In this document: positions 19,559-56,309 of the stretch, piece by piece
Position numbering within the stretch: position 1 is the first letter of the stretch
Layout: the number at the start of each line of letters is the position of its first letter
NCBI GenBank assembly: GCA_963971405.1
Contig: OZ020489.1
Coordinates: forward strand, 28,360,290 to 28,424,289
Length of the DNA stretch: 64,000 nt
Reading direction: 5' to 3'
Source: Psococerastis gibbosa
Lineage: Eukaryota; Arthropoda; Insecta; Psocodea; Psocidae
The notes under the pieces: model-generated
The model's database searches: none
What the model saw: only the letters and a program-made list of their open reading frames with translations
Told to the model about the DNA's origin: nothing
Position numbers and translations under genes: made by a program

Positions 19559-19743
19559 TAAGGCGGGGATTCCACCAACGTCAATAGTGATAGTAAATGT
19601 TTTTTGACGTGGTAGCAGACATTTTAGAGTCTAAATAAATGTTTTTTGACGTGGTAGCAGACATTTTTAGAGTCTAAAAATGTCTGCTACCACGTAAAAA
19701 AACATTTACTATCACTATTGACGTTGGTGGAATCCCCGCCTTA
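19559..19743. mobile_element. Palindromic MITE, family M, copy 1
   Basis: Ends TAAGGCGGGGATTCCACCAA and its complement. Arms contain GACGTGGTAGCAGACATTTT; the left arm has that block duplicated in tandem, the right arm has it once. No coding capacity. Confidence 0.8.
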
Positions 19744-21460
19744 GCGTAAGACAGGAGAGACGGATTTGGAAGCCATCGCAATAGGCTACTTGACAATTTT
19801 TGAAAACCAATTTCGATGCAGATTTATTTACACTCCTTAAAAAAATCCTAAAAAAAGTGATTTAGTAGGGGATAAAAAATATATAATATATAAAAAAAAA
19901 TGTGACGCTATTTGTGACGCGGCGGAGAAGGCACCAGTTGGAGTTGTATTTGTAGTGACGTCAATCTGACGTCATTTCTAGTCACCCATGTCTGTCGGCA
20001 TTTTGGATCTTGTAACCCACATTTAAAAACGATTATACGTTTTGACTTACTTATATCAAAATGAACTATCTCTATTGTCCATCTTGGCTATCACGAAATG
20101 TATTGATTAGATTGACTGTCAACTTTGAGATCCATTAGCTAAACATAAAAAAATATGAAACCAAACTGCTAGTCAAAAAGACAAAACGCTTCCCATATGC
20201 AATCCTCAGATGCCAACATGTATAGTCCACGCAAAATGAGAAAAGCATGGATATGGAATGTGTTGATCCTGTGCAACACTGTAAAAATATTCCTTGCACC
20301 ATTTTGCGTTACCTTGTTGCATTTGATGCAAGGCATAACAATGGCTATGGCGCTATAGCCCCCCCCCCCCCATTAGGTTCCTCAAAATGCGTAAAACCCC
20401 ACTATTTCAGTCCCATTTTTCTTCAATTTTCTCCCGGGGGAGACCCCCTTGTGCTCAATTGTATTAATTCCCTATAATATAGCAATATAATAGCAATAAG
20501 CAACCTTATTGCTCTGAAAATGCGTAAAACCCCAATATTTCAGCCCTATTTTTCAAAAAATTTCACTTAGCCCCCCTCCTTGGTCTCATTCTAGATCCGC
20601 GCCTGCGTGGACTATACCTCTGATGGTCTACCTCATTTTACTCATAATGCAACCATGTAACCAAGACAACATGCATTAGTTCGGAGGGCCTGTCTTAGTA
20701 GTTCAGTACTCGTTATACAGGTTATCAGTTCAGCGTATCACTATTTCCCAATTTGCATTAGGTGAAAAATTTACACATGTATTTGCAGATACGGAGTTAG
20801 ACGTACAGTAGGTATTGTACTTTGTTTCTACGGCGGTTTTATCTAGACCTACTGCCAACAAAACATATGTATAAAATTTGGGTTGTCGATGGTTTCAAAC
20901 TATATTTTTCATGATTTCATGACGCCGAGTTTGTATATACACACATATTATAAACGAACTGCGAACGACGTAAGAAGTGGAGGTTGACGAATTAAGCCAG
21001 CAAAGGATGTAACGTTATCACAAATTTTTTTTTAATGATATTTTGACGTGAGATTTTCCGATTGAAAATTAGGGTGCTTTCTTGATATTCAGTCAAAATT
21101 AGGTGGAAAAAATAAATATTTTAAATCAAAAAAATTAAAGTGCATTTAGAACACAAAAAGGCAAGTTTTCACCAAATTTCGTGGAAAAAATGGTTTTTTG
21201 TAACAGATATTAAAAAAAAAAAAAAACTTTGTTTTTCGCATTTTTCACATAAATTTTGCTATTTAATGTTTTTCCATATGACTTGTAGTTTTACCGGAAA
21301 TCAAGATATACCGTATTTCACCAACTTCCCGACCTCAGATCGCCAGTAATTAATTTTTCCTTTCATTTCTGTCATATTATCTGCCATTTCCACTGGGTTT
21401 CATCCTACTATAATTTGATGTCATTTCAAAAAGGCACGACAACCCAATACGGGACCTGAC
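19744..21460. other. No gene seen; two CRE-like sites
   Basis: TGACGTCA occurs at 19956-19963 and 19967-19974. GGGGGAGACC-type repeats lie at 20360-20590. The rest is AT-rich without coding evidence. Confidence 0.4.
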
Positions 21461-25177: not shown

Positions 25178-25715
25178 TACATCCAGCATGATTGATTCTG
25201 TCGCCAGCAACACCATCTTGGGTTTTTAACACAATAGTTACATATAGCATAAGTTAATAATTTAAAAATGGGGATTATACAATAAATAATCTGAATTTGT
25301 AAAGTCCAAAAATTAAATTATTATGAAAAGAACCCTATAGAAGAGGGATTGGTGTTCTCCACTGGTGGAGAGACAAAATGGCGAGAAGGATTTTTGAGCG
25401 GTGACATACACAGTATAAAGAGGATGAATAACAGCCGGTGCGTGGGGAATCGGCTTGGAGGGAGATAGAAAGTACAAGAAGAAGAAGAAGGCTAAGGAAG
25501 TGCTAGGTTAATACTGAAACCGGAGGTCCTGCTGAATAACCAAAAGAGGAGGAACATGATGAGTGAAGGAGGTTCATACTACCATACAAATTACACGTAA
25601 GCGACTGCAACAGAATGTAGATGATGTTGATGGCGTCAATACAGATCAGAAGGAACTGGACTAACCGCCACGATCGATCTGGCTAGCTTCAGGATAATTA
25701 GGCTACCTAATTACC

Positions 25716-25883
25716 TAAGGCGCCCATTCCACATCCGTCAATCGTCAATGAAAAATTGAAAAATGACGTCAAAATGAAGTAAATTGACGTGGTAGCAGAA
25801 TTTTTAGTATGTCTTTAATGTCTGCTAAAACGTCAATTTTCAATTTTTCATTGACGATTGACGTATGTGGAATGGGCGCCTTA
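25716..25883. mobile_element. Palindromic MITE, family M, copy 3
   Basis: Ends TAAGGCGCCCATTCCACATC and GGAATGGGCGCCTTA. Arms contain AAAAATGACGTCAAAATGAA and TTGACGTGGTAGCAGAATTT. Closely similar to the copy at 51060-51227. Confidence 0.8.
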
Positions 25884-28163: not shown

Positions 28164-31100
28164 TTAGGCTTCACTTTCTTCGACGTCAACTTCTTTAATC
28201 ATTTCCAGGGACGAGTCACTCCCCTGGCTACCACTGTTGCTAGTAGGATGTACAGCGTCAAGAGACTTGGTTTCGTCTCCTGAGTCGCCACCATTATCTC
28301 GACAAGAAGCCAATTGCCACGCGGGTATGGAGGAAGTTCCGGAAAGAGTGACTGCTGGGAACTGATGTCTGAAACAAGCCAAAGTAGGCCACAATAAAAA
28401 AAAGATTGGCAGTTGAGCAAGAAAATTCGCAGCTGCATCATTGAACAAGCCCAAAAGTAGAAAGTACTGCGGTGTCGATTGAGAATGGCGAAATGTTGTA
28501 GGCTCCCAATCGTTCTGTATGGTATGGGGGGGGGGGGGGATAAGGGTTGACCCAAGCTTTGGAGAGCAGTGCATTTGAAATGCGGATGAACAGATGAATA
28601 CTGCACATATTTTTATAGAGATGGTATCTCAAATGCTGAGGCGAATGGATACAAAATCCGGGCTGTTACTGACAATTCAGAAACGGAAACTAACATAGGC
28701 TCCCGGCAGAAGAAGAACATCCGAGTTGACACACCTGAGGCAAGTGGTTTGACAAGAGCATGACGTCCCTTTTCAGAGCAGCAGTCTCCAAGGTCTAAAT
28801 TGCCATGATGTTCGCCAATCTTCTCTAGAAGAGGCATATTTAAAGAAGAAAAAGGAACTAAGAGAGAATTTCATTAGTGACTTCGTGGAAGGGAAGCATG
28901 ATTAATAACTTAAGCCTGAAGATGGTGTTACACAACATGCTACGTAGAAAATGAGCACCCCAAAATTTGTTGTTTTTATGGACTTTTTATTTTTTATTGC
29001 TTTCCAATTTATACGTAGTATAAGGAAAGCTTTGTGATGGTCCAAATTTTCGATTCCGAGATTTCAACGGATTTACACATTTTGAGGTCCCAGGAACCCA
29101 AAAAAGTGGTTTTTAAGAAATGTCTGTCTGTCGCTCTGTCTGTCTGTGCGTCGATTTCCGGGCAAACTACTCAGTCGATTTTGATGAAATTCGTCATGTA
29201 GGCTCACAAAAATCATATCTCGGGACTATTTGTTTTATTTTGGGCTATCTCAATTTGGGGGGCTTTATTTTCAAAAAACTCAAAAAAAACGTCTAAAAAA
29301 TTATTTATCCAAAACGGCTCCAACGACTTCTTTTAAATTCACATATATTGTAGTTGCTATTAATGTTGACAAAATGAGGGGGGTCGCCCTTTGATAGTTT
29401 GCTTCTGGGTAAAAAAAATAAAAATAACTAAATTTGAATGAAAAATGATTAAAAAATAATTTTTCTGTGAAACCTTTCCATCCATGATTTCTTCCTTAAG
29501 GCATGTTTTAGGTGTTGAATTGAGTAACGAAACCGGACAGTTTGCTTTCCCAAAAAATTATTTGGTTTTGTGCAAAAAAAAATGTTTTTGAAAAAATGAT
29601 AGAAAATTCACGGTCAAATGCATTGCGTGCCCTGCCATTATTGCTGTGTGGTAACTTTTTGGTCTGACCTATATAGAATTTACCTCACCTCCAGTGACGT
29701 CAGGTGGAAATTTAACTGTAGGAAAATTATTTACCATGAAATTACTCATTTTCTCTAGCTACTGCTTGATAAATTGGAAAGCAAGTTCGAGTAAACTCGG
29801 ACCGGTTCTTTATTTAACAAAGCAAGTCAATAAAGATTTGGCTCATGGAAGTTGTTGAATATAATCGGGTATTTTTACTTTTCGGTTTTGTAGTTCTTCC
29901 AAAAATCCCAGAATACGCATAATTTTAGTCCGTTCTGGTATTTATGAAAGAACTAAGGCACCAAAAATCTAATTTTTCCTATTACATGATGCATGAAGCA
30001 GTTTTCTACAACTTCCATGAGCCAAATATTTAATGACTTGCTTTGTTAATTAAATAAAAAATAAAGATTCAATAAAAACAACAAATTTTGGGGTGCTCAT
30101 TTTCTACGTCTTCCTCTTAAGGAAAAGGAACATTGTCATGCTGAAATTAGGGTGGCCCCCACCAACTGTAGGTCTCCCTGTGGTGAGTGGAATTTTGGAA
30201 GATTCTATTGCTATTGTAGGTTTATGATTTTTTGTAATACAACGCAAATACTGTCCATAGTGAATATAATAGATTATCATTTACAGTCACTCATTTAACC
30301 ATTTTACAGTAACAGTGGAAAAAAATGTGTTAGACGCAATTATGTTGTTTCTAACGCCTGCTTTCAGCGTTTCTGCTTTAAGCTACCCTGTCAGCCTGGC
30401 GGGGGGAGTGAGTCTGTTTGTTAACTTGAGGCACCCTAAGGGCAGACTCTTTCACCTCGGGGAAAGGGGAGTTGACTAACAGGGTGGACCTCCTGATTAT
30501 AGTGGATTCCGAACCACTTGGGGAACATGGTAAAGTCACACGATTAAATCGGAGGTGACCAGGACTCGACTTATACTGCCTGAGCGAGTTATCATGTCCC
30601 ACCAGGTTCCCCTGCCAACGCTGTGCACACTACCAAGTTGCCGCAGTTTGAAACATGCTCTGCTCTAATGGAATCAACATGGTAAGGCCGTTGGCATTGT
30701 TAGACGCAATTATAAAAAAACTAGTAAATTAAAATAAAATTTGGTGGTTTGGTCCTTGTTATGCATTACTACATTGCAGCATTTTTTCATCGACGGCGCC
30801 AGGTTTTGACATACACATCTCCCATGCCTTTTACACTTCAAGCCACAGTTGGGCCATGTTCGGCATGTTTTCTTTGGGAATACGGCTCTTCAGCAGTTTC
30901 CAGAAGTTTTTGCTTGGGTTGAGGACACATTGAGCCAAGGCATATCTCGTAGGTACGAGTCTCACCAGATTCCGTTTTTCCGGATTCCCATTTCAGATAT
31001 AGTAGTTGTCTTTACCGTAAAAACTATAAAAAAACTTTTAAATATGTCACCTGCTAAGTAAAATGCCTTTGACTATGGCTAATTCAGACTTGAGGTCGCC

Positions 31101-34100
31101 CAGATTTCTGACCAACACCTGTTGCTCCATTTGAATGACTGTCATCCTCTCCAGTTCACTATGCATTTTATGTACATCTGTCTTCAACTCTCCAATGGAA
31201 TTATTCAACGTATTGCTAAGATTCGTTACTTTAGATTGCAAACATTCCGGCTTCTTTGGTTTCCCAAATAAAAAGGGGATAATAACTTTCTGCAAGAGAA
31301 ATATTACGATATGATTAATTATTAGAACAATTGTTGCATAATGAACGGTAGCCAAAAAATGACCAGTAGCAGTTGGTTCTTGTTCATCGAATGTGTAGAG
31401 AGGTAATGTTATTTTTGCTTTCCAATTTATACGTAGTATAAGGAAAGCTTTGTGATGTCGTGATTGTCAAAATTTTTGACTCCGAGATTTCAACGGTTTT
31501 ACAGTTTACACGTTGTGAAGTCCCAGGAACCCAAAAAAGTGGTTTTTACGAAATGTCTGTCTGTCTGTGAGTAGATTTGCGAGCAAACTACTCGGTGGAT
31601 TTGGCTGAAATTCGGCATGTAGGTTCACAAAAATCATACCTCGGAACTTTTTTTTATTTTGGGCTGACTCAATTTTGGGGGGGGGGGTTTTATTCTCAAA
31701 AAAATACAAAAAAAAAGTCTAAAAAATTTATTTCTCAGAAATGGTTCCAACGGTTTCTTTTAAATTCACATATATTGTAGTCGTTATTAATGTTAATAAA
31801 ATGCTTGCCCCTTGATAGCTTGCTTCTGGGGGTAAAAAAAAAATGAAAAATAACTCAATTTTCATGAAAAATGACTAAAAAATAATTTTTCTGCGGAACC
31901 ATTCTATCGATGATTTCTACCTTCAGGCATGTTTTAGGTGTTAAGTTGAGTAACAAAACCGGACAGGTTGCTTTCCCAAAAAAGTATTTGGTATTGCGCA
32001 AGAAATTCTTTTTCTGAAAAAATGATGAAAATTCACGCCAAATGCATTGCGTGCCCTGCCATTATTACTGTGTGGTAATGTATAGATTAATTCAGTGCTT
32101 TGGGATCCGAAAAATAACCACAGGAAAATTATTTACTATTAAACTACTCATTTTCTCTACCTACTAATTGATAAATTTGAAAGCATGTTCGAGTAAACTC
32201 GGAACGGTTCTTTAATTTGTATCTTTAACAGCGCGTGAACCTTAGGAACGTTTGCACCGTTAGTTGTTGGTGCTCATGCCTCATTTGGCAATTTGTTGCC
32301 CAGGCAACGTCAAAAACAGTTTGCCAATGGTTAGTGTTCATGTCTCATGTTCAACGCTCACGTCAACTACACTCCTTACAGTATGATTGTGCACTCACTA
32401 TTACTTATTACTATACACTTATTACACTCATAAAACGAATTGAAATGGCTACAAATTCTTCGATTTTCAATGCCAATGATGTTAAGTACTTAAATTACAC
32501 GATGTAACATGTGTGTTTATTGTGTATGGACACCTTTTATATAATTGAAGCAACCATAGAAATATATTAACTGGAGCGGCGGGAGCCATAATATGCTTTA
32601 TGGGGCACCCGTTAACCATAAGCCAACTATCAGAGATAATTACCAACGTAAAAACTATCGAAGTCTTACACATTGCAGCACAGCAGAACGGATAGCTGGA
32701 CCCGGTTAAAAACTCTGTACTTAGCTTGTGCAGGCTATTTTCCCAGCGAAATTGCGTACTTAACATGTACATCTGCTAATGCAGCCATATTGATACAGCC
32801 ACTGGATAGAAGCAACGGCATGCGACATGTCTACCAACCTTAAAAAACAAATAAATTCCATAAGCTGCTCCTACAAGTAATGACGCAGTGTGCAAAATAT
32901 CACGGAACTTTTGAAATGGCGTTACGCCAGGGCCATATGGAGTAATCCCAGGAATAGGTGCGGGCAAAAGCGAAGCAGACTGTCTCACTGGGGCCATGGC
33001 TACACTTCTTTCAAATGCTATTCGAATTTCCTCTTCTGTTAGGCCTTTAGACCTAAGAAATGACTCTTTTTGTTCATCGGTTGCCCTTCTTATTTTAGGA
33101 TTAAGAAGAAAAGAAATAGCAGTCTTTATCTGAAATGAATATAGAAAAAATTAATTTGTAGCTTAGGTACTACACCTGATCTAGGTCATGGTCATCCCTT
33201 AATGGGCGTAGAAACAGCGCACCTGGGCCATACCAACTCTATAAAGCTCAACCTCCCCAGAGTTTAGTTGACGACAATATTTATTTGACAAGTTGACATT
33301 GTAAACCATCTTAAATGCACTGAGTGGTTGAATATTACAATGCATCAAGTTATAAATAAATAAATATTGACTTTTTTTTGTTTTTCTATTAGCCAACCTA
33401 GGCTATAAAGCCCTCTCTTACACTCAACTAGGAAGACCCTGCTTTACATGCCCTCCGAAGCATGGCCAGAAAATGTAGCAAGGGCGGGACTCATACCAAC
33501 AACCTTTCGGGTGAAAGTCGGAGTCTGTACCTTTTCTCTACATGTCATGTTACGTATGGTGTTATCGACGTGTCCTGTGTCATTCACATTATCAAGTAGA
33601 TAATACAGATGAGTCCAAGCCCATAAAATAAAGCAGTTAAAACATGTGTACTAATGTAAGTCTACACTAACATGAATTTGGGCAGTAGTGTAACGAGAGA
33701 GGGGGGGGCGGTCCACTCGGAGCCACATCGCCTGGGGGCGCGATATTTCATAAAGAATATGCATATTATTAGGGTGACCATCTATACTGTTTTTGGCAGT
33801 ACAGTAGTGTTTTTCGGTGTCTCTGTACTGAAACTGCTTTGATTTGCCAAAAACACCAATATGTACTGATTTTCGGTGGAGGACCGTACTTCCATTCCCA
33901 ATATTAATCAGTACATACATTTCCAGATGAACAATGTAAAAAATTGGAATTTGGCACCCATTCTTGCCCGATGGTGTATTTAAAAATTACCTATAGGCCT
34001 ACAATTGTCATAATAATTAGTTGCCATGTTTAACATTAGGGAAAAAATATTTCCACTCAACAGATTAAATTTGTGATTCTGATTAAGTAGTTAGTATCTT

Positions 34101-37570: not shown

Positions 37571-40500
37571 ATGAGGAAATTATGGTTAATATTGTGCGCG
37601 TTCTGTGCTTTACGTTTAACTTTGTCTGAATACCTTTATAATGAAAGTGAATCTTACGCAGGGCTCGCCTCTGCGATAGCTGATTATCACAAGTCAGCTT
37701 GTATTTACCTCTTGACGGATTCACGATCTAAAGGTGGGAACTATTGATTTTCAGATTTTGCTTAATTCATTATTTGTTTACCTCACCTATGCACGCATAC
37801 AAATCCCGTATTGAAATTATTGGCTAAGGCAATAAGGGGGTTGGTAAAAATAGCTACGGGTACAATTTATGTGTCATTGAAGTATTTTAGTGTAAGAATA
37901 TGCCGACGGAAGAGTAAACAATGAGAGGGGTTTATCTTCTTCTTCTTCCGGCTCTACAGCCCTTGGTGGGCTTTGGCCTGCTCGACAACACTCCTCCATT
38001 CTTCTCGGTTTTGCACAACGCTCCACCATCTGGAGACTCCCAACTCGCGAAGGTCATTCTCTAACTCGTCCTTCCAGCGGTTTCTTGGCCGTCCTGGCAG
38101 TCGTCTTCCCGTCATGCTTGCTTTGTACATTTTTCGTGGCATGCGTTCTTCAGACATCCTTACAACGTGTCCCAGCCACCTTAATCGTTGTGCTTTAATG
38201 AACCTTACTATGTCTTCTCCGTTGAGAGCGGCGTCGATTTCAGCGTTGTGTCTTATACGCCATTCTCCGTACTCGTAAAGGGGTCCATATATCCTCCTTA
38301 TTATCTTTCTTTCGAGTACACGTAGTTTGTTGGCATCGTTTACAGTGAGATTCCAGGTTTCCGATCCGTATGTTGCAACTGGTCTTATAAGGGTTTTGTA
38401 TATTCGTAGTTTTGTGGCTCTAGAGATAAGTCTTGACTTGAGCAATTTTAGGTTGGCAAAATATGCTCTATTGGCTGCTGTTATTCTTCTGTCTATCTCT
38501 GCGCTAGTTTTGTTTTGATTGTTTACTTCTGCACCAAGGTAGATGAAGCTCTTTACATTCTCGAAAGCCATTCCTTGTACAGTCAGGTTGTCACTTCTCC
38601 GTCTCCTTTCTAACGCTGACATTACTAGATACTTAGTTTTTGAGACATTTATTTCTAGTCCAGCTCTACTCGCCTCTACACATAGTCTAGCAAGTATCTC
38701 TCCTAGTTGCTTCCTATTTTTAGTGATTATGACTATGTCATCCGCATATGCGCAGATCATTTGTGACTTGTATACAATTGTCCCACTCTCTACTATATTC
38801 TGTAACGCTGCTTGCAGTGCCAGGTTGAACAGTGTAGCTGAGAGGGCGTCTCCTTGTCGTACCCCTCTGCCGAGTGGGAATTCTTCTCCACATCGTCCGT
38901 CTATTATTACACTGGCTCTGGCGTTTTCCATAGTCATTTTTACTAGATTAACTAGTTTTTTTGGTATTCCTTGTCGGATCATTGTGTTATATAGGCTGTC
39001 TTTCCAAATAGAATCGAAAGCCTGTCTAAAATCCACAAAGAGCATGTGTAGGTCCGTATTATGCTCGTAGCATTTTTCCATAGTTTGCCGTACAACGAAG
39101 ATTTGGTCAACAGTTCCCCTGGCTGGTCTAAAACCACATTGGTACTCGCCTATTATTTCTTCTGCATACGGTGAGATTTTTCTTAATAGAAGATTTGAGA
39201 AAGTCTTGTAGGCAGTATTAAGGAGTGTAATTCCTCTGTAGTTATTGCAGTCCAACTTGTCGCCTTTCTTGTAAATCGGTACTATAGTTCCTGTTTGCCA
39301 TGCTTCCGGCATACATTCGTTTGCCCAGATCTTTGTAATAATGTCATGTAGTTCTTTTACAACCTCTGACCCAGAGTATTTTAGTATTTCACTGGTGATG
39401 CCATCTTTGCCTGGTGCTTTATAGTTATTCATCCTTTTTATGGCGTTTTCTACCTCTATTAGTGTTGGTGGGGGTATAAGCATTTCCGCAGTTTGTGGTA
39501 GTGGTTCTTCTTCTGGTGTAGTGTCGCTCTCTTTGTTGAGTAGTTCTTTGAAGTACTCGGTCCATCGTTCCATAATACTCTCCTCTTCGCCAAGTAGTTT
39601 CCCATTCTTATCTTTGCAACCGCTTAGTCTCGCCTTGTATTCTTTCCTGAACCAGTCTGTGTCTTTATAAAATTTCCTGGTCTGATTTTGCTGCCTTTTG
39701 TTTTCTATTTCTTCTAGTTTTTTGTTAATCATTTCTTTCTTCTTTCTGCGGCATACTCGGTTTGCTTCTCTTCTGAGTTCATCATATTCTTCCTGGGCCG
39801 ACCTGGTGTTTCTTTGTAATTTCCTCTTTCTGGCTTCATTCTTCCGTTGTATTATTTGTACACATTCATCATCAAACCACTCATTTCTTACGCGCTCTTT
39901 CTCTCCAATAATGTCTCTAGTCACTGTTGTCAATGCTTCTCTAAGTTGTTCCCATTTATGGTTTATATCATTTACATTCTCGTCTTCTGCTCTTTCTTCT
40001 CTTTGTTCTTGCAGCTTATTTCGTATCTCACGTTGAAAATTATCTTTTACATCTTGTACTTTAAATAACTCTTGGTTCCACACCGTACGTTCTTTTGGCT
40101 TTCTTTTTTGGGCGTTGGACAGTTTCTCTCTCATCACTGCTTTAACTAGGAAATGGTCGGAATCACAATTAGGTCCTCGGCAGGTCTTCACATCTATTAC
40201 CGACGATGCGTGTCTAGCTGATACTAGGATGTGGTCTATTTGATTCGTCTCTGTAGTTCCAGTGATCGTCCATGTCCCTAGGTGTATGTTTTTGTGTTGA
40301 AAGTAGGTACTCATCACCGCAAGTTTGTTCGCTGCTGCCATTCCAATCAGGAGTCTACCGTTTTCATTTGTAGTTTGATGTTTTGAGAAGAGGCCACATG
40401 TTGTTTGGGTAAATGGTTCCTTTCCGATCTTCGCGTTGAAGTCACCTAGTACTACAGTGATGTCATATTGTGGTATGTTCTCAATGGAATAAGTCATCTG

Positions 40501-43500
40501 GTCGTAGAAGGCTTCTTTCTCGTCGTTATCTGCCTCTTCGGTTGGCGCGTATGCAGACAGTATACTTATATTTCTAAATTTTCCTTTAATACGAATTTTA
40601 CATATTCTGTCACTGATGGGCTCAAATCCTATTACTTTCCCTCTTGCTCTCTTTGTCACAAAAAAGCCAGTTCCTCTCTGTCCTGTTTTATCCTGGTTAC
40701 CACTGAAGTACACTGTAAAGTCACTTTTCCTGATTTCTCCTTGGCCTTTCCACCTTATTTCTTGTACTGCTACAATGTCGAAATTATATTTCAATATTTC
40801 TCTTCCTATTTCTTGCATCTTCCCTGGCATTAGCATTGTCCTTACGTTCCACGTAGCCAGTTTTAATTCCAAGGAAGCTCGTTTGTTTTGCGGGGGTCGT
40901 CGTCTAGTTCCGGTATAGTTGTTCCGAGGCGTGTCTTGAGTCATCGCAACTTGGGTTTTTTTACGGTGTTAGGTCGTCGGCCTTACGCCCAACCTCTGCC
41001 AGAGGATGGGGGTGTTGATTTCGGGGTACCCAGCCCCTAGGTGATCGCCTTCTCTTCGGCTGGGAGTCTCACCCGCCCCTTCGCAGTACACCATTCGTGT
41101 GTTGCTCATTGCCGTTGGCCCTTTAGGGCTCTTCCGCCACTGAGTTGGATGACAGCCCTGCTGCCGACTGACATCGCCTTCAAGAGACTCTCACTTCTCT
41201 TCCCCTTAGGCTATGCTGTGTTCCGAGAGGATCTTCTGCATACTCAGCCGTTGAAGTTGCATCTCCTCCAACGCCGTTGTATCCATTGTCCATCTCTTCG
41301 TGCAGCGCGGGGGGCAACACCTATTTAGTGGCGGTGTTACTCGCCACGTCACGATGGTTTCTAAGATCTGTGAGGGATTTGTTAGTAAGTGCATTGCCCA
41401 GTGCACTTACCACCTCAACCTCCACCATCGCCACTGCATGGTCGGGGACTGCTTATTCAGTATATTCGCAGCTAACCACTATATCTAGTGGCCGTATCAC
41501 TATCCGCCACCTGTGACCCCGCTAGTAGCTCGCAGTTAAGCCCTAACAATGAGAGGGGTTTATAATTTTTACAACTCTATGGATTTTCTCAACATAGCCT
41601 ATTACTTACTTAGGCCTAAGGCCTACTAGTCAATGCCCACACTTGGCTGATGAGCCATTCGGATGCAGGGGGTAGCCGCCCTCCCCCCCCCCCCCAAATT
41701 TAGTAAACATATTGTAAGCTAATTTATTGCGCTATGATTTAATCGATCGATCCTACATATATATATTTCACCTGTTTTGGCACACAACCACCCCCCCCCC
41801 CCCCAAATGGGCTGGATCCGTCCCTGCATTCGGTGATGTGCTGACCGGTAGAGGTTGACTGTTCTTAATGTGTTGTTCTCTTCATCTCGGGAGTGGCGGA
41901 GTGCCGTGCAGTCTCCACTTAGGTGGTTTGCATTCATCGTTTCGTGTCCCGATAGGGGGGCACTCTAGTGATGTAAGGACTTCAAACAGATGTTGGGTGG
42001 CTAGGTACTTAATTACTTACTTAACGTGTCCGGGCCTAGGACATGTTGATCCAAAACGTTGCGGCCTGGATGGCCTTGTCATTGGCCTCTAAAAGATCTG
42101 CCTGGGATACATCTTCTTGTCTCGGGCAAACCAGAAGGCGGCCGTCGTCTTGATGTTGTCTGCATTCGCAATTCGGGTCCTCCGCCAGCCCCCACCTACA
42201 CAGGCATCTTGTAACTCCCATTCTTAGCCTACTATTGAGGCTCCTCCAGGCTAGGTACTCAACGGCTCAACTTGCTTATTTCTAGTCTTAAAAAAATACG
42301 TTTCGATACAGAACGCTACATATTTTCCTGTTTACAGACGCAAGATTTGTCGAGAAGGTTATGAAGCTGGTCACTCACAAGCATAAGTGGTCCGCAAATG
42401 TGTATTCTTTTGATGAGTACCACAGCTTGCAAGAGAGTGATATCAAAACCGTAAAGTGTTATGTTCCTCTTCAGGTTGTCATTTCTCATGATGACGCCAC
42501 ACATCAAGCTTTCGTTGAGGTCAGTACGAAATTTGTAGCTCCATAAGCCTTAATTTAAATATACGCAGGGGAAATCACAGCATTTCAACTTCAAAACGTC
42601 GGGGCCATAGAGTCCGGAAGCGTTGAACTGTCTATGGAGTGCTTACTCCTGAGCCCGGCAATTTCGGAGCGAAACAGTCCTTTATTCAAAGCATGTTTTT
42701 GGCCATTAATTTCGTCATTTCATTGAATTTTTTTTCAAGTGAGATATTTTTTAAGTGGGCTCATTTAGAAAGCGTTAGTCTGCCTAAGTATGCTCTAAGC
42801 CTATGTACTCTGATAAGGGGACAATGAAAACATTTCCATATTTTCTGTCTCACTAACAATGCAACACTGTTTAAGAGGACATGCTACGTAGAAATTTAGC
42901 ACCCCAAAATTTGTTGATTTTATTGAATTTTTATTTTTTAATTAATTAACAAAGCAATTTATTAAAGATTTGGCTCATGTAAGTTGTAGGAGACTACTTC
43001 ATGCATAATTTAATAAGAAATATTACATTTTGGGTACTTACGTCTTTCAAAAAAACCAAAGAGTACTAAAAGTTCGCGTAATCTAGGAATTTTGGAAAAA
43101 CTACAAAACCAAAAAGTAAAAATACCCGATTATACAGTATATGATGCACGAAGTAGTCTTCTACAACTTAAATGAGCCAAATTTGTAATAACTTGCTGAG
43201 TTAATGAAATAAAAAATGAAAAGTATTTAATTTTGGGGTGCCAATTTTCTACGTTGCTGATCCTCTTAAATTCGTTTGCAGTTTGCTGCTATTATCATTT
43301 TTCTGTATCCCAATTGAATATGAGAAGTTTATGTCCAATAGAGTATTGATGTTCCTCTTGTCAATTGTTATCATTATCAATGGTGTGATATTTCAGCACT
43401 CAAAAAGAACGAGTATGCATGGCTCAGACTCATATGGCGGAGGGATCTGGCTGGTGTTCGTGAAGTCTTTGAGTGCGGATTACATGAATAATTATTTCTC

Positions 43501-46500
43501 CGATATCAACACACCGTTTGATGTTCAGTTGTTGGTTGCCGAACTCAAGCATAATCTTCAGGTACCTATCTAAGTATTAAAACACCGGTGCAAATGCTTT
43601 CCTATTTTTATTAATAGTTTCACTGTAAATAATTGTTCTTGGTTAAATATCGGTTGTCCAGTGGGTTTTGGTTTCTATTAATAGGTAATTACTACAAAAT
43701 ACATAAATTGTGAATTCAAGAGAAGTAGTTCCGGTTCGTTTCTGAGAAATTTTTTTTTTAATTGTTTGGGGGGTTTTTGGGGTATAAATAAATACCGAAG
43801 TAGTGACTTTTTGTTATACCAAATTATTATAAATTATATTATATTACCAAGCCAACCTAGCAGAGTTGGGGCTATAAAGCTCGCTTACACTCAACTAGAC
43901 CTGAAAGGTTCAGGGTCGCTTGCTTTACATACCCTCTGAAGCATGATCAGAAAATCGAGCAACCTTTCGAGTGGTAGTCGTACCACTACAGTCATGTCCT
44001 CACAGCATTTCTATTTGTCTAGATGGTTTTGAAAGAAGTCTACCGGCTGACTCCGCAGAAGCCTCTTCGGACGCCTATGTTCGGTTCGTGGTCCGTAAAC
44101 TCGTCTCTGCAGGCACCGCCTCTAGGACACCTGTACAGTCGCAGGAACGACTTGGAGGGCGAGCAGCTGCGCGTGGGCTACGTCAACAGCCCCCCCTTCA
44201 CGTACCATGTCGAAGATGCTACAAGACTGGATGGTTATTTAGGTGATATCTGGGAGGTCATCCAGTCAGCAATCAATATCACGTATGTACACGGGGTAAA
44301 CACCTCAGAGATGCTTGTTTCCAGTAATTCTTAGAATTCTGGGTAAATGAGGTTCTGTAGGGACAGTTTTGGTCACTAGGTTCGCTGACGACGAACCGAT
44401 ATCCATATTATTCAAAATGGCCCCCGTTTGCATGTGAAAACTAAGCTCTTAGCATCTAATTAATTCTTTTTATATTTTTTATAATATTTTTACTAGGCCT
44501 GGACCTTATTTCGCTGCATATAATTTAATATGTATATTCTCCATGATTTATAGAAAAATATCACTTTAAAATAATACATAAATAAAATAATTTTGAAATA
44601 TTATTGAGGCTTATGGAAAAATCAACGCTTTGATATCATTGCAACTGGTGCTGCCATCTACAAAATGACGTCACAAATGAACCTCATATGGTGGCTCAAA
44701 ATGGAATTTCGTATAAATGACGACTGACGCGTATCGTTGTTACTCTGAAGTTTTCTCGTTTTATGGATGAGTTTCTACATAAATTATTTGAATGTATTAA
44801 TTATTTACAGGTCGTCGTTTAGAAAGAAAAAGAACTATGGGGTGCACCTAGCGAACGGATCTTGGACAGGCCTTATTCGAGCAGTACACAAGGAGGAGTT
44901 CGATGTAGGCATTGCTGACTTTGCGCTGACTCAGAAGAGATACCTTACCATTGACTATTCCCTGCCATTGATGCTTACCACGTATGTACAGTCCCTGTCA
45001 GTCAAACTCCCCTTCTCCCTGAGATGAATGAGTCTACCCTTGGGGTGCCTCAAGTTTATAAACAGACTCACTCCCCCGCCAGGCTGACAGGGTTCCTTAA
45101 AGCAGGAATGCTGAAAGCAGGAGTTGCAAAACAAACAAACAAATAGAGAATAAACTAGTGTGGTTGTAATCGACGTGATTTGTTGAATTGGTTACTTTTA
45201 AGAACATACTGATAAAGTTGCGTTTATTTAAAGTAGGCCTAAGCAATTCCCATAGTTTCAGCTAAGTTCACATCACTTTAGGAAGAATTTCCTCATGTGT
45301 AGGCACTTAACTCTGGCAGATCTCGAAGCTTACTAGCAACCTATTGTGCACTATAACTTAGCTAATTGCAGTTTCCAGGTGATTTACAAAAATTTGGGAT
45401 CCACTATAGATGCAGATGCGATGTTCATGCCGTTGGGACATGACTTGTGGGTCACCCTTGCCTGCTGGATTTTGCTGGCCGCTGTGCTACTCTACCTTGG
45501 CTGCTATCTCAGTGACGTCACCTTTGACACCAGGGAAAATATGAGCTTTGCAACGGCAATGTTTTTTGTCAGTGGTGCTCTTTGTGGTCAAGGTGAGTAA
45601 CAGATATGTATCTTGTTGTATTAAGGCGGCTATTCCACCGACGTCGTTTTTCAATGTGCATGTGCATGACGTGGTAGCAGACATCATTAATAAGTCTACC
45701 ATATTATGACTTAATTTATAATAGATAAGTATCTAAATTATAGTCTCCTTAAAATATGGCAGAGACTTATTAATGATGTCTGCTACCACGTCATGCACAT
45801 GCACAATGAAAAACGACGCCGGTGGAATAGCCGCCTTAGAAGAGAACGGCCGGGATAGTCCAGTTCGTAGGGTAGCGGAATTTCGAGGCTGGAGACTCGA
45901 CATTAAAGGAAAACTTTTGCCCAGGACCTGGGTCCACCCAGCCCTATTTTCTTATCATTTGTTTTTCATTTTCCGATATTTTCCTTTTTTTTATGTTTGC
46001 AATCTTATAACTTGGTCACATTTCCCTCTGCATTTGCCCGCTACCGGCATTACTTAGCTTATGGCTAGAGCGATCTATTCTATTTCATTATCGTTGTCCC
46101 AAGCATACTAAAATGTTTTTTTTCTCTTTGTTGATAGCGGGATTCTGCGTGCCACAACGATTCACCTGCCGCACTCTGTTCCTTTCTTCGTTCTTTGTAA
46201 CGGCCGTGGTAATCCCCTCATACTCAGCCAGTCTAATGTCGTACCTCACAATTCTGCCTCCCATCGTGCCGTTTCAAAATATGAAAGAGTTTTATGAAAG
46301 CGGCAAGTTCAAAATGGTGGTCAAGTATAGCAGTTACGAATTTGACCTCTTCGCGGTGGGTATTCGTTATGGAATTAATTTTTTTTACAAGTCTCTGTAC
46401 ACATTTAAAAATCTGAGCAAGCTTAGCAATACCTGGGGTAGTTCTCCCCTGAGAAGCAAAACAACGGATTTCATTCTCTTCCTATGGAAGTCTTTGTTTT

Positions 46501-48899: not shown

Positions 48900-51059
48900 T
48901 AGGTTATAGCAATGCGCTTCAGAGTTAATTCGCAACGCTTATTGTTAGAGCCAATCGGAGGGTGAAAAGCCTCACAAATGTACAAAATTAAATATCTCAA
49001 AATATATTGACCGTAGAGCTGACAAAGATGTCACAGAAATGATCCTTTACATTTTGATACATAATTCGTGCCTGTCTATAACACATATTGGTTACAATTA
49101 TAGAACTTGATTTGAACAAACAACGGTTGGTGACGGCGTGTGGAGGAAGAAATTTGAAAACCGTGGCCAATGGGTGTTAGTGCTGCCACGTATCAAAGGA
49201 GGAGAATTTCTTTTAAGGGATGTAATATTTTGATATCTCTGCAATGGTTATTTCCGGAAAATTCGACATTGTACAAAAACGTAGTGGGGTTGTCCGATTT
49301 GCTCTTAAGTATTTAATATCTCTCCCTCTTAAATATTTCTTTGGAAACAAACCATGTCTATGTATTACTGATTATAATAAATAATCCCTCGTTCAGGAAT
49401 TAATTAATTTAGTCGAAAATGCCCAAGCCTGCTTTGTTTACAAAACATTTGGAAATATATATATATATGTATACAGTATGAAAACAAATATAAAATTATG
49501 TTTTGCTCGGCATGATTCTGGTATTTTCGGACTTGGGACAGGTATTCAGCTTTTCAAGGGTTAATCCCATCATCGCTTGAAGTCTCGGTACTGCATGGCG
49601 CCGATAAATAAGATGTAATAAACAAGAAAATTTGTTCTTCTACACTTTGGTGTGCATTATGGTGCCGTCATTAACACCGATCGGTCTCAGTTATGGGACT
49701 TGATTTGTTAAATATAACGGTTACTGAGGTTGTCAGGTCGAAGAAGTTCCAAAACTGTGGCTAATTGGCGTTAGTCACTGCCTCATACTATATAACAATA
49801 CTAGTATATACAGTATATATAAAATAAGAAACATTTCTTCTACTTTATAGCATCTCATATTTAAGGCTCTAGGATTGAAATGTCATGAGAAATTTGAATT
49901 TGTGCAGAAAAGCGGAAGATGCGGTGGTCCATTTGCTTCTACTAATTAGAATTCGCCTTAATTCCTGAATCTGGGTAATATTAATTTTAAAAAAATCCCA
50001 TTGACATCAGTTCATACATAACGTATGTTATTGTCGGACACAGTCCGTATTATATTTCACCTTGGAAATTTATGACTAAAAGGCTCCATCCGAAAAAATG
50101 AAGCTAACTGGCAGTTGCGTTCAAAATCAGCGTCTAGTGGTAGTAAGATAACTGGTAGTCTCCGAGATATCACCACCATGGTGTCCGAACTCGTAATATC
50201 TCCATTACCTTACACGAAGCTAATTGGGGTGGAGCCCAATTAAATACTATTAAGACTGTTGGAAAATGCAACATGCAACACAGATTTTTAGGCGGAATTA
50301 AAGGTTTCTAAGAATTCTAAAACCTTGGATAGGTAATAAAATGTGAGTCACCATATACTTTCCACATGATTGTAAAAAAATATTATAGCCTACAGGTTTA
50401 AATTCATAAGACAATGCAACTATGCAAGAACAGAAATCGTCCAAAAATAGTACCTGGCACGTGACCAATCCACTAATATTCATAAACAAAATAGCTATAC
50501 AGAACACGTTGTAGCAAATTGTTTTTAATGGCATTAGATTTTTTTCAAACTTACACTGATGCTTCGAAAAAGTTAGAACGTTCTGCCATGGAGCTTTTCA
50601 AATACTGACAGCATTGAGCCGAAAGACCCTGTATGTACTATGCCTTTCTTATGGCCAGCATTATACTGCTAAAGTTCCAATCAGTCATAATTACTAAGGA
50701 ATTGACTGAAGATAAGTAATATCAGTTTATTACTTTTGAAGAGTAAATTATAAACCGATTTTTATCAGTTCAATCGAACGGCATCACCATCCTTGCCCAC
50801 AGCAGAACATTTTTAGAGCGACAAAACATAAAATACGCCTAGTGTTTTAATTTAGAAAAGGCTCAATATGAAAATGTTTAAAGCTTCTTAAAATGGAAAC
50901 GCTGCCCTATTTATATTATACGTATATTCTATAATATATTATAAAAAGTATTGAATATTGAAAAGTACATGCCAAGCTTATGTTATGTTCGCTAAAAAAC
51001 GTTATATAACGCTTGATAGGATGTTGGACCGTGTAATGTGGCCCAATTAGTCGGCTAGC
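48900..51059. other. 3' intergenic region between receptor and SRPRB
   Basis: The two genes converge here. AATAAA at 49377 fits the receptor. For SRPRB, TTTATT on plus at 50728-50733 is an AATAAA on minus, about 490 bp after the stop. Repeats occupy 48985-49970. Confidence 0.4.
48985..49970. repeat. Two diverged copies of a dispersed repeat downstream of the receptor
   Basis: GAACTTGATTTGAACAAACA with ACCGTGGCCAATGGGTGTTA (49105-49190) recurs as GGACTTGATTTGTTAAATAT with ACTGTGGCTAATTGGCGTTA (49695-49785). A related block (CTACATTTTGATGCCGTCAC) is at 61275. Confidence 0.45.
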
Positions 51060-51227
51060 TTAGGTGCCCATTCCACATACGTACAACGTCAACGAAAAAT
51101 TGAAAAATGACGTCAAAATGACGTAAATTGACGTGGTAGCAGAATTTTTAGTATGTCTTTAATGTCTGCTAAAACGTCATTTTTCAATTTTTCGTTGACG
51201 ATTGACGTATATGGAATACCCCCCTAA
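51060..51227. mobile_element. Palindromic MITE, family M, copy at SRPRB stop codon
   Basis: Ends TTAGGTGCCCATTCCACATA and GGAATACCCCCCTAA. It holds AAATGACGTCAAAATGACGT and TTGACGTGGTAGCAGAATTT. The right terminus overlaps the TAG stop of SRPRB (51224-51226 on minus), so insertion was at the very end of the coding sequence. Confidence 0.8.
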
Positions 51228-53259
51228 GCGACCTGCTGCAGCCATTCCTCCAACTCGTGCAGATTGGGACCGTTGTCTTCATCAGACATGATAGCAGACG
51301 ACTCGGCAAAGGTGACATCAATGGGGCTGATGTGATCAAATTCAAAGTCTTTGCCCTGCTTACCGAGAAACGCGCCACGGGACTTGTTATCAATTGATTC
51401 CAGTTGGCTTGTTTTGGTTTTTCTCAAAATATTTCTGAAAAATAAAAGCCTTTTTAAATGTCAAAAAAATAATAGGTAACTAATTTTTAACACTGTCCAA
51501 TCAGAATCAGTTTCAAGTTTTTACCATTTAAATAGAAATGGCGGATTTGTGTCATATTAGCCCAGTTTGTTCATTATTTGCATGTGGAAGAGGATTATGC
51601 TGTACTATCACGCCCGGTCGACTGGAATTCAATACAGATAATGATGTATTTAATATTTGGGGCATAATGAAGAATTTAACCGTAATGAGGATGGCCGATT
51701 GGCCTTTACGTCTTTACTATAGTTGACAAAGTACTAAATATAAATATTTATTCTATGGTACTACCCGACCACGATAGGATAACATTTAGAACACTTTGTT
51801 TTTTCCAAAATTTGCATAAGCGGACCATTGAGTTTAGTCGATTTTTAGAAAGTGTTCTAAATGTCATCCAACCGTTATCGGGTAGTACTAGGCCTACATA
51901 CAGTATATTTTTATACTATGATTGTTGGCATAGCGATGCGCTGGGTCTAGGACCTTATATAATCGTTCTAGAATATCTCGGCTGCATCTGAAGAAAACAT
52001 CATGTGTCACAGGCTTCAAATAGCGTTCGATAACTTGGATTTTCCAATTTCAGGTCTCAGTAAGTTATTGTTTTACATTCTCTATCAATCTTTAGAGGTT
52101 TTGGAACTAACTTCAACCACTAAAGATGACATAGGTACATTAGACAAAGCTTACATTTCCTTTTCTAGAAGAGAGCGAACTGCAGAAGATCCTTTTGCCA
52201 TAGCCTCATCTTGTTTATTGCACAGAATTAATATTGGTGGGTGGATAGACTGGATGGTCTCGTCAGACAGAACATTGTAGAGGTATTCTGCCACATCTCG
52301 GAGCTCTCTTTGGATGTTCAAAGAGTCTATCACGAAAACGAGACCTCGAGCTTGAGATTTATACTGGTCGAGGATTCGGTTACGAACTCGCTCTTGCCCT
52401 GGAACATCTATGAGCTGCACAGTTTTCTGTCGTAAAAGTAAAAAAATAATTATCCTTCATACATAAATTGTCTAAATCAAAGCGCCCAGAACCTTTTTCT
52501 TCGTTCATTATACAGAAATTTAATACTCATCTTCAGTGGACTGCCAATGTTTGAAGACTATTAATATTCAAGATTCTACTTAACAGCATTTTGAGGCTCT
52601 AAGAAAGAAGAGCCAAAACCATTCCACAATTAGTACATCCTGCTTTCGTGCTTTGCTAATCAAGGTTTAAAATAGGCTACTTACATTTCCAGTTTTGTAA
52701 TCTATTTCATTTTCTTTCATTGACGTATGCGTGTCAAAAAACTTTTCATAAGCTAAGCGAGCAAATATCAACGTTTTTCCAGAATCGGACAGTCCCAGAA
52801 GCAAAATACCATGTCGTTTCACTCTCTTCTTCAAAACCACGTAGATCAACACTAAAAGGAAATGTGTTTTTCAAAAATTATGTCTAAAATGGGTTCTTTA
52901 AATAAACAAAATGCATGAACTGTAGTCCATTGTACAAGGGATGAGCTCCACCTGAATCATGAAAATATATTTGATAAATATTATGACTTACCACATTCTT
53001 ATTCGAACTGCCTTTCTGTCATATTATTCAAGAATTTAATACAAAGACATCGGAAACACCTCAACAATGGTACAACCGCAACATATTACTTGGTAGTTAA
53101 TAGTAAATATAGAAAATAGGGATAGTTACCTATAGTTATTAGCACAGCAGCAATGGCTACAATAATTCCTAGAAATTGGGGATCTTCCCATTGCGATATC
53201 GGCTTGGAAAAGGGAACCTTCCTTGGAATTTTTTGCACGTTGTCCACTTTTGACGCCAT
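51224..53259 (-). CDS. SRPRB: Signal recognition particle receptor subunit beta (4 exons)
   Basis: Exons on the minus strand are 53259-53130, 52851-52685, 52426-52155 and 51434-51224, joining in phase to 259 codons plus stop. SRPRB is the ER membrane-anchored small GTPase that tethers SRP receptor alpha and so delivers ribosome-nascent chain complexes to the translocon. A membrane anchor occupies residues about 29-50 (FLGIIVAIAAVLITI, continuing into exon 2). The P-loop is GLSDSGKT (63-70), G3 is DVPGQE (106-111) and G4 is CNKQD (168-172). LGKQGKDFEFDHI and the end LHELEEWLQQVA match the conserved C-terminal part of the family. Length is close to the 271 residues of the human protein. The TAG stop at 51226-51224 lies inside the terminal inverted repeat of a MITE (51060-51227), so the 3' UTR starts in transposon DNA. 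Confidence 0.93.
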
Positions 53260-53944
53260 ATTGTATGTTGATACTTGACTTGATTGTTGATGTGGAGAAA
53301 CGTGTACTTAGTGTCTTTAAATCTTGCAATTTGTCTATTGACACGAATTTCTGAATTTGGCGGGAATGCAACTTACGTGTATAGTACGGTATATTTGTTA
53401 AATAACCTACAACAATACAAATTTTATTGTAAAATGTTGGTGATATTCTGTATATTGTGTCTTTCAGTTTAATGCGCCTATGATCTGCTTCGGTTTTGCC
53501 TTATTCGCTTCCCAAGCGGAATAAAGTTCTGCATAGGACAGCCACGATAAAGATATATTTAGCTATTGAATTTTTGTAAGTACACTTTAGCGCCTTTATT
53601 AGTCCCCACGCTTGATTATGAGATTATCGCCTATTGAGCCACTGTTGTTATCGAAGCTAGGAGTGTATATGGCTAAGTATAGAATTTAGTTACATTAAAT
53701 TAATAAAACTAGTTCGAAATCTTTTAGATTTCCATCAGTCAGCGAACTGAATGTGTGCAGTACGCTACAGGATGATTAAATGCAGGCTGACAAGCTAGGA
53801 CCTAATATACAGTTCGCAAGGTAATAATAATTGTATTATATACCACAGGCTTCGTTTACTTTCTGCAATATTGCGGTTATCTATCTGTGTACACAGTTTT
53901 AGGGACACCACAATATGTGTTATTAGTCATTGGCGTAGGAAGGG

Positions 53945-54660
53945 GCTAAGCCCCCCCCCCCCAGGTCCACCCGTAGCCCCCCCAGGATTTCTGGTGACAA
54001 AGACGTTATGAAGGCTAAAGGCATAGTATCCACAATAATTAAAGGGAAATTAATTCTTAGTATGCCTATTTTACATGAAAAAAATCAACTTACTGACTCA
54101 AAATGCTTAAAATCCCAATACTTCAGGGCTATTTTTTCAACCAAAAAAAAACCGGGGCCCCCCTCAATGGTAGGTATATTCGTCGCTATATTATCTCAAT
54201 TGTAATGCTTGCAAACATTGGCGTGTATAGGGAGTCCTGCCCCCCCCCCCCTCCCCAGGATTTCTGGTCACAAAGACGTTATGGAGGCGAAAGGCATGGT
54301 ATCCACAATAACGAAAGGGAAAATAATTCTCGGTATGCTTATTTCACATGAAAGACATCATAATAACAAAAAATCAACACATTGACCAAGTACTTTCACA
54401 AAATGCTTGAAACCCCAATATTTCAGACCTATTTTTTCAAAAATTTTCTTCGGGGGAGACCCCCCGGACATTGAGCTCTTCCGGAATTTTGATAATTTGG
54501 ACTGGCAGTCAATGTGCTAATTTGGGCTTATCCATCAATTTTTTTCTCCGGGGGAGACCCCGGGCCCCCCTTTCTCCACGATAGAATATTCGTAAAACCT
54601 CACTAATTTGGACCCAATTATCAATTTTTTTTCTCCGGGGGGGGAGGGGCGGGTTCGTCT
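53945..54660. repeat. GGGGGAGACCCC-type dispersed repeats
   Basis: Three or four diverged copies of a unit with AATGCTTAAAATCCCAATA, TTCAGGGCTATTTTTTCAA and CGGGGGAGACCCCC, preceded by C runs. Similar units are at 20360-20590, 34735-34890, 55395-55890 and 60690-60780. Class not recognised. Confidence 0.5.
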
Positions 54661-55029
54661 ACCTAGCTCCCTTGCACCGCGCTAAGCATTGGTTTCCCTA
54701 TACCTTCTTAAGATATTTCAGAATTTGCATGGCAGCCGCGGCTCCTAGATAAGCTAAGCACTATTTTAATGAACCATTTATGAACCATTTCCTACTAGAT
54801 TTTAATGAATTTTGTCATCTTAGAGTGCGGCAGTACATCCAGAGGTTAGCTCCTATGCACCGCCGTGGCCGGCCTGGCTCCTGTGAACCAGACAGTGTGC
54901 TTCAATTGCTAATAGCAAATTGGCTGTATTGCTGGCCACAATAGAGCAAATTCAATTTTAGCGCTGTTTTTAAAAAAATAGAAATGGTGTACATGGTATA
55001 ATCAAATAATTGCACGCAATCAAGACTAC

Positions 55030-55265
55030 CATCAGAATGCAGCTATTGGTCGGAAAAGTGGCCAAGAACAATGAGATTACCCAAAATTATGAATTTTTGG
55101 TTTTCACAAACTTCGCTCCAAATTACACTATTCGAACATTTTCTTAAATTTCTGGTTCAAAATACTGTTATTGGACGGAAAAAGATGCCAAGAGCGTATC
55201 AATTTCCAAATTTCAAGATATTTGTGGTGTTCACTAATTTCACCCCTAAATGCACAATCGGACAA
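55030..55265. repeat. Two diverged reverse-oriented units of the 124-bp repeat
   Basis: TTGGTCGGAAAAGTGGCCAA is the reverse complement of the unit landmark, followed by AATTTTTGGTTTTC, AATTACACTATTCGAA and TTTCACCCCTAA. The spacing matches about two units, 2.5 kb left of the main array and in the opposite orientation. Confidence 0.65.
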
Positions 55266-55394
55266 ATTAAATAATTAAATATCAGAATCGATATCTCTCT
55301 TACCGGTCGGAAACGTTGTCAAGAACGAGATACTTTTGGCTTTAATTCCATTATTCGAACATTTTTTTTCAATTTCTGGTTCAAGCAGGTCAGT

Positions 55395-55890
55395 GATTCA
55401 ACACCAACAGTGGGTCCGCCCCCCCCCCACCCAAAATTTACCAAAACAGAAAATTGTTCAGATATTTCTTTTAAAAAAATTCCCCTGCTTCCAATTTGTT
55501 AATAAAGTTATCGTCTGCAAAATCAAAAACTTTCTGCCGACAAACTATTTCAGGCCTATCTTTTAAAAAACATTCCCCGGGGTAGACCTCGGGCCCCCCT
55601 TGTAAGCTGTAATATTCTTCACATGTAAAATATAAACACATAACTGCTATCAAGTTGCGTAAGTGCGTAAATTCCACTATTTTGAACCTATTCTTTTTCT
55701 AAATAATTCCCCGGGGGAGACGCGCCTGCCCCCTTTCTCGTAGTTGGTCTGCTATTCTTCGGCTGAAAACCTAAACATTATTAGAATACGTTTCAAGACG
55801 TATATACACCAAAATGTGAAAACTCCACAATTTCAGGCCTATTTTGTTTCAAAAGCCGTTCCGGGGGAGACCTCCGGGCCCCCCTTTGGC
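55395..55890. repeat. GGGGGAGACCCC-type dispersed repeats, second cluster
   Basis: Repeated TTTCAGGCCTATCTTTTAAA and CCCCGGGGGAGACGCG-like blocks alternate with short AT-rich spacers, as in 53945-54660. Confidence 0.45.
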
Positions 55891-56309
55891 CTCCCGACCC
55901 GTGGGTGGGAAAATTAAGATCATGCCTCTAATTAGGAGATGCGTAAACCCATGAGAACGGCTTTCCTCTTTTCTACTGTTTTACGAAAATACGGTGGGGG
56001 GGGGGGGGAACACCACCCCATTCGAAAACCTATCGCAAGCGGGCAAACTTTATGTATTGATGTGGCATGAAAATTGGACCCCCAAAAAAAAAATTCTGAA
56101 CAGCGGCCCCTAAACATCATGGTTTCGTTCAAATTTACACCCTTATTTATTTATTTATATTTTTCAGGCTTCAAATTTCTTCCTTTACCTATGCCGATTG
56201 ACATCAGGCAATTAACATCTATAACGGTTATTGTTAATGTGAGCCTAATTCTTGTCTCAATATTTCAGAACCATTTTTGTCAGGGAGGATTTTGTCAGGA
56301 CATGTAGAT

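Follow-up and report, generated by a model that had tools for sequence, protein, structure and literature searches.

A putative recent MITE insertion at the stop codon of SRPRB in Psococerastis gibbosa, with TAG kept at the junction

Introduction

How can a transposable element land on the stop codon of a gene and leave the encoded protein with its usual end? We address this question at the SRPRB gene of the insect Psococerastis gibbosa, in a stretch of 64,000 nucleotides (assembly GCA_963971405.1, contig OZ020489.1, positions 28,360,290 to 28,424,289 of the forward strand; hereafter, the window, to whose first letter positions refer). A first-pass annotation of this stretch had proposed that the reading frame of SRPRB ends GTC GCT TAG, that the last T of GCT and the TAG belong to the terminal inverted repeat (TIR) of a palindromic MITE, and that the MITE thus provides the stop codon. 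We analyzed the gene, the MITE family in the genome assembly and the target sites of its copies, and used these to weigh alternative histories of the SRPRB stop codon.

Results

The SRPRB gene and the end of its protein

SRPRB is encoded on the minus strand of the window by four exons (Table 1) with GT-AG introns, which together form an in-frame sequence of 780 nt that is translated into 259 amino acids; the minus-strand reading confirms the frame end GTC GCT TAG. The assignment to SRPRB follows from the GTPase domain, with a match of the predicted protein to the Pfam SRPRB model (E = 3.4 × 10−46), and from the usual C-terminus, as found in a PDB search. At this C-terminus, LHELEEWLQQVA, the last 12 residues align without gaps up to the final residue in the three printed SRPRB alignments, and a fourth SRPRB row of the same search also reaches query residue 259. 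The rows that inform the protein end are 7obq, 7nfx, 2fh5 and 6frk, the SRPRB chains of which we take to be mammalian; the more distant SRPRB rows, 1nrj and 2ged, end at residues 208 and 191, respectively, and are uninformative on the C-terminus. The PDB chains that end at the same residue bear out the earlier claim that the host protein still ends at the family's usual position. Two further genome matches exceeded the cut-off of the SRPRB model (37 and 33.5 bits vs. 25), and were taken as other small GTPases. The 3' flank of SRPRB is single copy in the assembly, so that there is no empty paralogue of the insertion site.

Table 1. Positions of the SRPRB exons, the MITE and its target triplets in the window
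Feature	Position	Strand	Basis
SRPRB exon 1, from ATG	53130..53259	-	gene model
SRPRB exon 2	52685..52851	-	gene model
SRPRB exon 3	52155..52426	-	gene model
SRPRB last exon, including the TAG stop (51226-51224)	51224..51434	-	GT-AG gene model; Pfam SRPRB match
Palindromic MITE, 162 bp, 5'-GGTGCCC...CCCCCC-3' on the plus strand	51063..51224		boundaries from other family copies
Left target triplet TTA (coding strand: downstream copy, TAA)	51060..51062	+	triplets of 38 distinct sites
Right target triplet TAA (coding strand: upstream copy, TTA; supplies T of GCT and TA of TAG)	51225..51227	+	triplets of 38 distinct sites

Elsewhere in the window, a 1004-aa open frame on the minus strand (37957-40968) has, by eye, the look of a LINE endonuclease-reverse transcriptase, minus-strand frames at 31050-33150 are, from their look by eye, presumably PEX14 exons, and 53940-55900 holds a series of C-run/G-run repeats of the type ccgggggagacc.

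Anatomy of the MITE at the stop codon

On the plus strand, positions 51058-51229 read GC TTA, followed by 162 bp and then TAA GC. The two arms (51058-51113 and 51174-51229), of 56 nt each and separated by 60 nt, are 86% complementary, and, with up to 3 mismatches allowed, the arm motif CGTCAACGAAAAATTGAAAAATGACGT occurs 4 times in the window, compared to a mean of 0.00 over 100 shuffles; two of these matches are in the MITE at SRPRB and the other two in a second copy, near 25.7 kb. The complementary arms, the motif matches vs. shuffles and the many copies elsewhere all support the identification of the element as a palindromic MITE. The second copy, at 25712-25873, is 92.6% identical over 162 aligned positions and is flanked by TAA...TTA, and more diverged palindromic relatives at about 19561-19746 and 45624-45839 share GTGGTAGCAGA and ATTCCAC, with flanks that also read TAA...TTA by eye.

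On the coding strand, the junction reads GTC GC-TTA-GGGGGG..., such that the flanking target triplet supplies the TA of the stop codon, and the MITE its G alone. The assignment of the four letters T and TAG to the TIR in the first-pass annotation therefore holds for the G, whereas the T, T and A make up a target triplet that varies among copies and lies outside the constant GG...CC. Similarly, its statement that the stop codon is supplied by the MITE end is correct for one of the three letters, but probably not as a matter of history, given that a stop was already present in either of the likely empty sites, GCTTAG.. and GCTTAA... Its proposal that the insertion hit the old stop, or a position no more than a base or two away, agrees with the overlap of the target triplet and the stop. 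We conclude that the MITE inserted recently, at the SRPRB stop codon.

The MITE family

A search of the genome assembly (409 Mb, 68 contigs) gave 953 family candidates at first look, or 1362 with a longer query, these being candidates that were not individually confirmed. All 40 scored copies, which include the SRPRB copy and are the best-scoring ones as opposed to a random sample of the family, are 100% identical over a 133-bp core, and the family appears to be young and high-copy. Two of the 40 share flanks with another, leaving 38 distinct core-identical sites, at which the left end was GGTGCC in 38 of 38 cases, whereas the right end was CCCCCC in 32 and had CC as its final two bases in 36; the TIR thus starts with GG, a feature of PIF/Harbinger-type elements. 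At one locus (C1:22878000-22879100), MITE copies form a cluster in which they are adjacent or nested, with matches at 22878208-22878828. Among 31 three-kb loci, frames of at least 60 codons that end at a MITE junction were found at SRPRB (78 codons) and at L060 (65), L067 (64) and L079 (64), the latter three having a non-coding look by eye.

Target triplets and the length of the duplication

The triplets that flank the 38 sites, as cut, were TTA/TTA in 10, TAA/TAA in 9, TTA/TAA in 7 and TAA/TTA in 3 sites; AAA/AAA was found twice, and CAA/CAA, TAT/TAT, TCA/TTA and TAA/GAA once each, whereas three sites carry an insertion or deletion at an end (TAC/TAA, TTA/ATA and TAA/ATA). Accordingly, TWA is present on both sides in 29 of the 38 distinct core-identical sites (identical in 19 of the 29), and the two triplets are identical as cut in 23 of the 38. 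These frequencies correspond to a 3-bp TWA target-site duplication, with exceptions at 11 sites where the middle base alone differs, 1 where the first base alone differs and the 3 with end insertions or deletions. That the duplication is 3 bp long is further shown by the occurrence of identical non-consensus triplets (AAA, CAA and TAT). The 2-bp TA duplication of Tc1/mariner (Stowaway) elements, which was attractive at first in view of the TAA...TTA seen by eye at the ends of three older relatives in the window, was rejected for the family, as identical AAA, CAA and TAT triplets cannot arise from TA. For single TTA/TAA sites such as L051 and L019, the TA reading could nevertheless hold; at SRPRB, where the triplets are unequal (coding strand, TTA upstream and TAA downstream) and no clean direct duplication is visible, a TA duplication would mean no more than that the old stop was TAA instead of TAG.

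We further compared individual copies to repeats that lack the MITE. For copy L024, six such repeats could be aligned to its flanks joined over a single triplet; the 3-bp TAA form was best in 2 of the 6 (L094 and L097, by 4 points each), TTA and the 4-base TTAA tied ahead of TAA in L091, and all three forms tied in 3. For copies L051 (which has an extra C) and L019, a 2-bp TA duplication of TTAA fits the repeats at least as well. In the empty-site comparison for copy L052, a 9-base gap lies beside the junction, so that this comparison does not settle the duplication length, and a search for junction-spanning empty-site matches of copies L001, L004, L005 and L065 found none.

Unequal triplets and possible carry-over of donor flanks

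After hand realignment of the three sites with end insertions or deletions, the count is 12 sites with a difference at the middle base, 1 with a difference at the first base and 25 with equal triplets. That 12 of the 13 differences fall on the middle base is significant compared to an expectation of one third (p = 1.7 × 10−5), but weak when taken alone, the middle base being the loosest position of the target. Decay after insertion cannot explain why approximately one third of the copies are unequal, because the outer 29 bp of the MITE in the same copies contain 10 differences in 1102 bp, of which three come from one truncated end and four are the same CCCGCC variant.

For mPing, PMC4561436 infers a cut with 5' overhangs of the triplet, the middle base of which is free; carry-over of donor flanks has been reported with mPing in engineered plants. 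We infer that the MITE of P. gibbosa might similarly carry a flanking TNA overhang from its donor site, which pairs with the target, so that one triplet is target-derived and the other partly donor-derived, a proposal of our own that we consider to have slightly less than an even chance of being correct. Middle-base differences would result from the pairing of a carried TNA overhang with a TNA at the new site. Five sites without end insertions or deletions have a triplet other than TNA on one or both sides; 4 of them were equal (AAA twice, CAA and TAT) and 1 was unequal (TAA/GAA). Were filling-in obligatory at such targets, equality would be expected, although the number of sites is small. Against carry-over as the sole cause, TTA/TAA is more common than TAA/TTA (7 to 3 as cut). 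Given L051 and L019, part of the unequal class may result from TA duplication of TTAA, which, however, does not explain the TAA/TTA and TCA/TTA sites; at single sites, exchange of flanks by recombination is possible. If carry-over is true, TTAG would travel with the MITE, and a stop on which the MITE lands would be protected by an imported stop-like end; the family would then provide natural genomic evidence for the process reported with mPing. An unequal middle base may allow a genome sequence to reveal the carriage of donor flanks by a transposon.

Why the stop survives

Enumeration of stop-overlapping contexts showed that an element with a GG end keeps the stop in 5952 of 5952 TWA contexts and in 9856 of 9856 TNA contexts. 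When the element cuts within the stop codon, the stop was kept in 2048 of 2048 contexts with GG or AG ends, and in 0 of 2048 with CA, CC or TG ends. The stop is kept because a triplet that ends in A can end inside a stop codon only at base 2 or 3, and TA followed by G is TAG. On this account, the insertion at SRPRB would have been tolerated because a TWA-targeting element with G as its first base has no way of destroying a stop. This amounts to a testable rule, namely, that no stop can be lost to TWA- or TNA-targeting elements with ends beginning with G (or A), and the rule predicts that stop-codon insertions are over-represented among the tolerated coding hits of such elements vs. those of elements ending in C or T.

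By a rough estimate that assumes the gene number, the stop usage and the frequency of T before the stop, 0.36-0.85 stop-codon insertions are expected by chance for the MITE family, and 0.10-0.25 in the register seen in SRPRB; with this expectation, a single stop-codon case requires neither selection nor a special role. No stop-codon MITE insertion of the SRPRB kind was found in the literature searched (including the available portions of PMC6593561 and PMC2872659), the coverage of which was partial and amounts to no proof of absence.

Predicted fold of the transcript

The 172-nt RNA is predicted to fold at −80.8 kcal/mol (z = −14.7), a stability reached by 0 of 200 shuffled sequences, which supports the foldable hairpin that had been proposed for the start of the 3' UTR; in addition, the stop codon UAG itself is located within the closing stem, GCUUAGG/CCUAAGC, of the predicted fold of the minus-strand transcript. 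On the coding strand, the MITE contains an ATTAAA at 51163, and the first AATAAA is located at 50731. In Rfam, the palindrome matches three miRNA models (E = 5.6 × 10−7, 1.8 × 10−5 and 0.11, the first on the non-coding strand), but with bit scores of 37.9, 38.4 and 23.5 that are far under the curated cut-offs of 110, 211 and 100; long palindromes of such make-up may match these models by their fold alone. The suggestion of the first-pass annotation that the hairpin may affect mRNA stability or the production of small RNAs is not supported by these matches.

Discussion

The explanation that best accounts for the observations overall, and that we hold with high confidence, is that a young PIF/Harbinger-type (PHIS) MITE entered the TTA that spans the last sense codon and the stop, GTC GC(T TA)G. 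The target would have been duplicated, with the coding side retaining T-TA, and the first base of the MITE, G, would have replaced the third base of the stop, giving TAG again and leaving the protein unchanged, whereupon the 3' UTR of SRPRB would have acquired a 162-nt hairpin, the closing stem of which holds the stop codon. Most likely, the insertion was neutral or nearly so.

Three old sites come into question: GCTTAG, in which TAG was already present; GCTTAA, with TAA present and TA duplicated; and GCTAAG, which adds four residues (KLAD). The old site was likely GCTTAG or, with a duplication of TA alone, GCTTAA, rather than GCTAAG, because the C-terminal residue coincides with that of the PDB SRPRB chains. 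Under GCTAAG, the insertion would have created the stop: the protein was four residues longer (VAKLAD), and an imported middle T turned AAG into TA plus the G of the MITE, trimming the protein. The downstream triplet is indeed TAA, its empty form translates as VAKLAD*, and middle-base differences are common in the MITE family; nevertheless, we consider this history improbable, as the trimming would have to hit the exact end of the PDB SRPRB chains. An origin of the palindrome as an ancient stretch of the 3' UTR, rather than by insertion, has a negligible probability, given the many identical copies with different flanks and the existence of repeats without the MITE for another copy (L024), and no evidence for such an origin was found. 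As to function, recruitment of the hairpin as a regulatory element of SRPRB, acting through mRNA stability, small RNAs or a poly(A) site at the ATTAAA, would fit the very stable predicted fold, the ATTAAA itself and the three miRNA model matches. Such recruitment is very unlikely, however, because the MITE is identical to many copies elsewhere and too young for selection to be visible, roughly half an event is expected by chance alone, and the Rfam scores fall far short of the cut-offs, so that the matches may reflect the palindromic fold.

Among the empty sites inferred for the region at 50600-51059 (minus strand), one would read TAG CTA GCC, in which only three codons (LAD) would follow the stop. 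A CUAG context favours stop-codon readthrough, and if the empty site was TAG CTA GCC, the insertion would have removed this context.

By its target and ends, which also suggest the kind of transposase, the MITE appears to be of the PIF/Harbinger type (PHIS). DDE_Tnp_4-type transposases are abundant in the genome, with 150 matches listed of 220 candidates. A search for an autonomous partner in seven loci, from four groups of DDE frames (375, 384, 382 and 348 aa, with two, two, two and one loci, respectively), found none with the TIRs of the MITE family as its ends. At the one end of L103/L106 that is visible, the inverted repeat differs from that of the MITE. The MITE-like pieces found in L103, L104, L106 and L108 were rejected as ends of a partner, since, in our reading, they lie inside or beside other elements. 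L103 (C14) and L106 (C13) share a 5344-bp stretch that is 99.96% identical between the contigs and contains a 375-aa DDE transposase frame as well as a MITE variant; L103 also has a second frame, YqaJ-like by eye, and the L103/L106 element appears to be very recent.

Like other PIF/Harbinger-type MITEs (Tourist-like; mPing/Pong), the MITE family found at SRPRB consists of small, high-copy, non-coding elements with TIRs and a 3-bp TWA triplet, and it shares with mPing a tolerant middle base of the target (PMC4561436); it differs in being almost fully palindromic and in that its triplets are often unequal at the middle base. TWA duplications are described for PIF/Harbinger, and C-TNA-G targets and TIRs that mostly begin with GG for the NuwaII group of the PHIS superfamily, in PMC4482050; the MITE family at SRPRB resembles NuwaII in the GG start, and here the flanking C and G are a preference and not a rule, with C preceding in 9 of 22 and G following in 11 of 22 core-identical TWA/TWA sites (22 of 26 sites read). 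Landing of piggyBac/TTAA MITEs on TTAA over a TAA stop would also keep the stop; the MITE family at SRPRB differs from these in that it lacks a general TTAA duplication and has identical AAA, CAA and TAT triplets.
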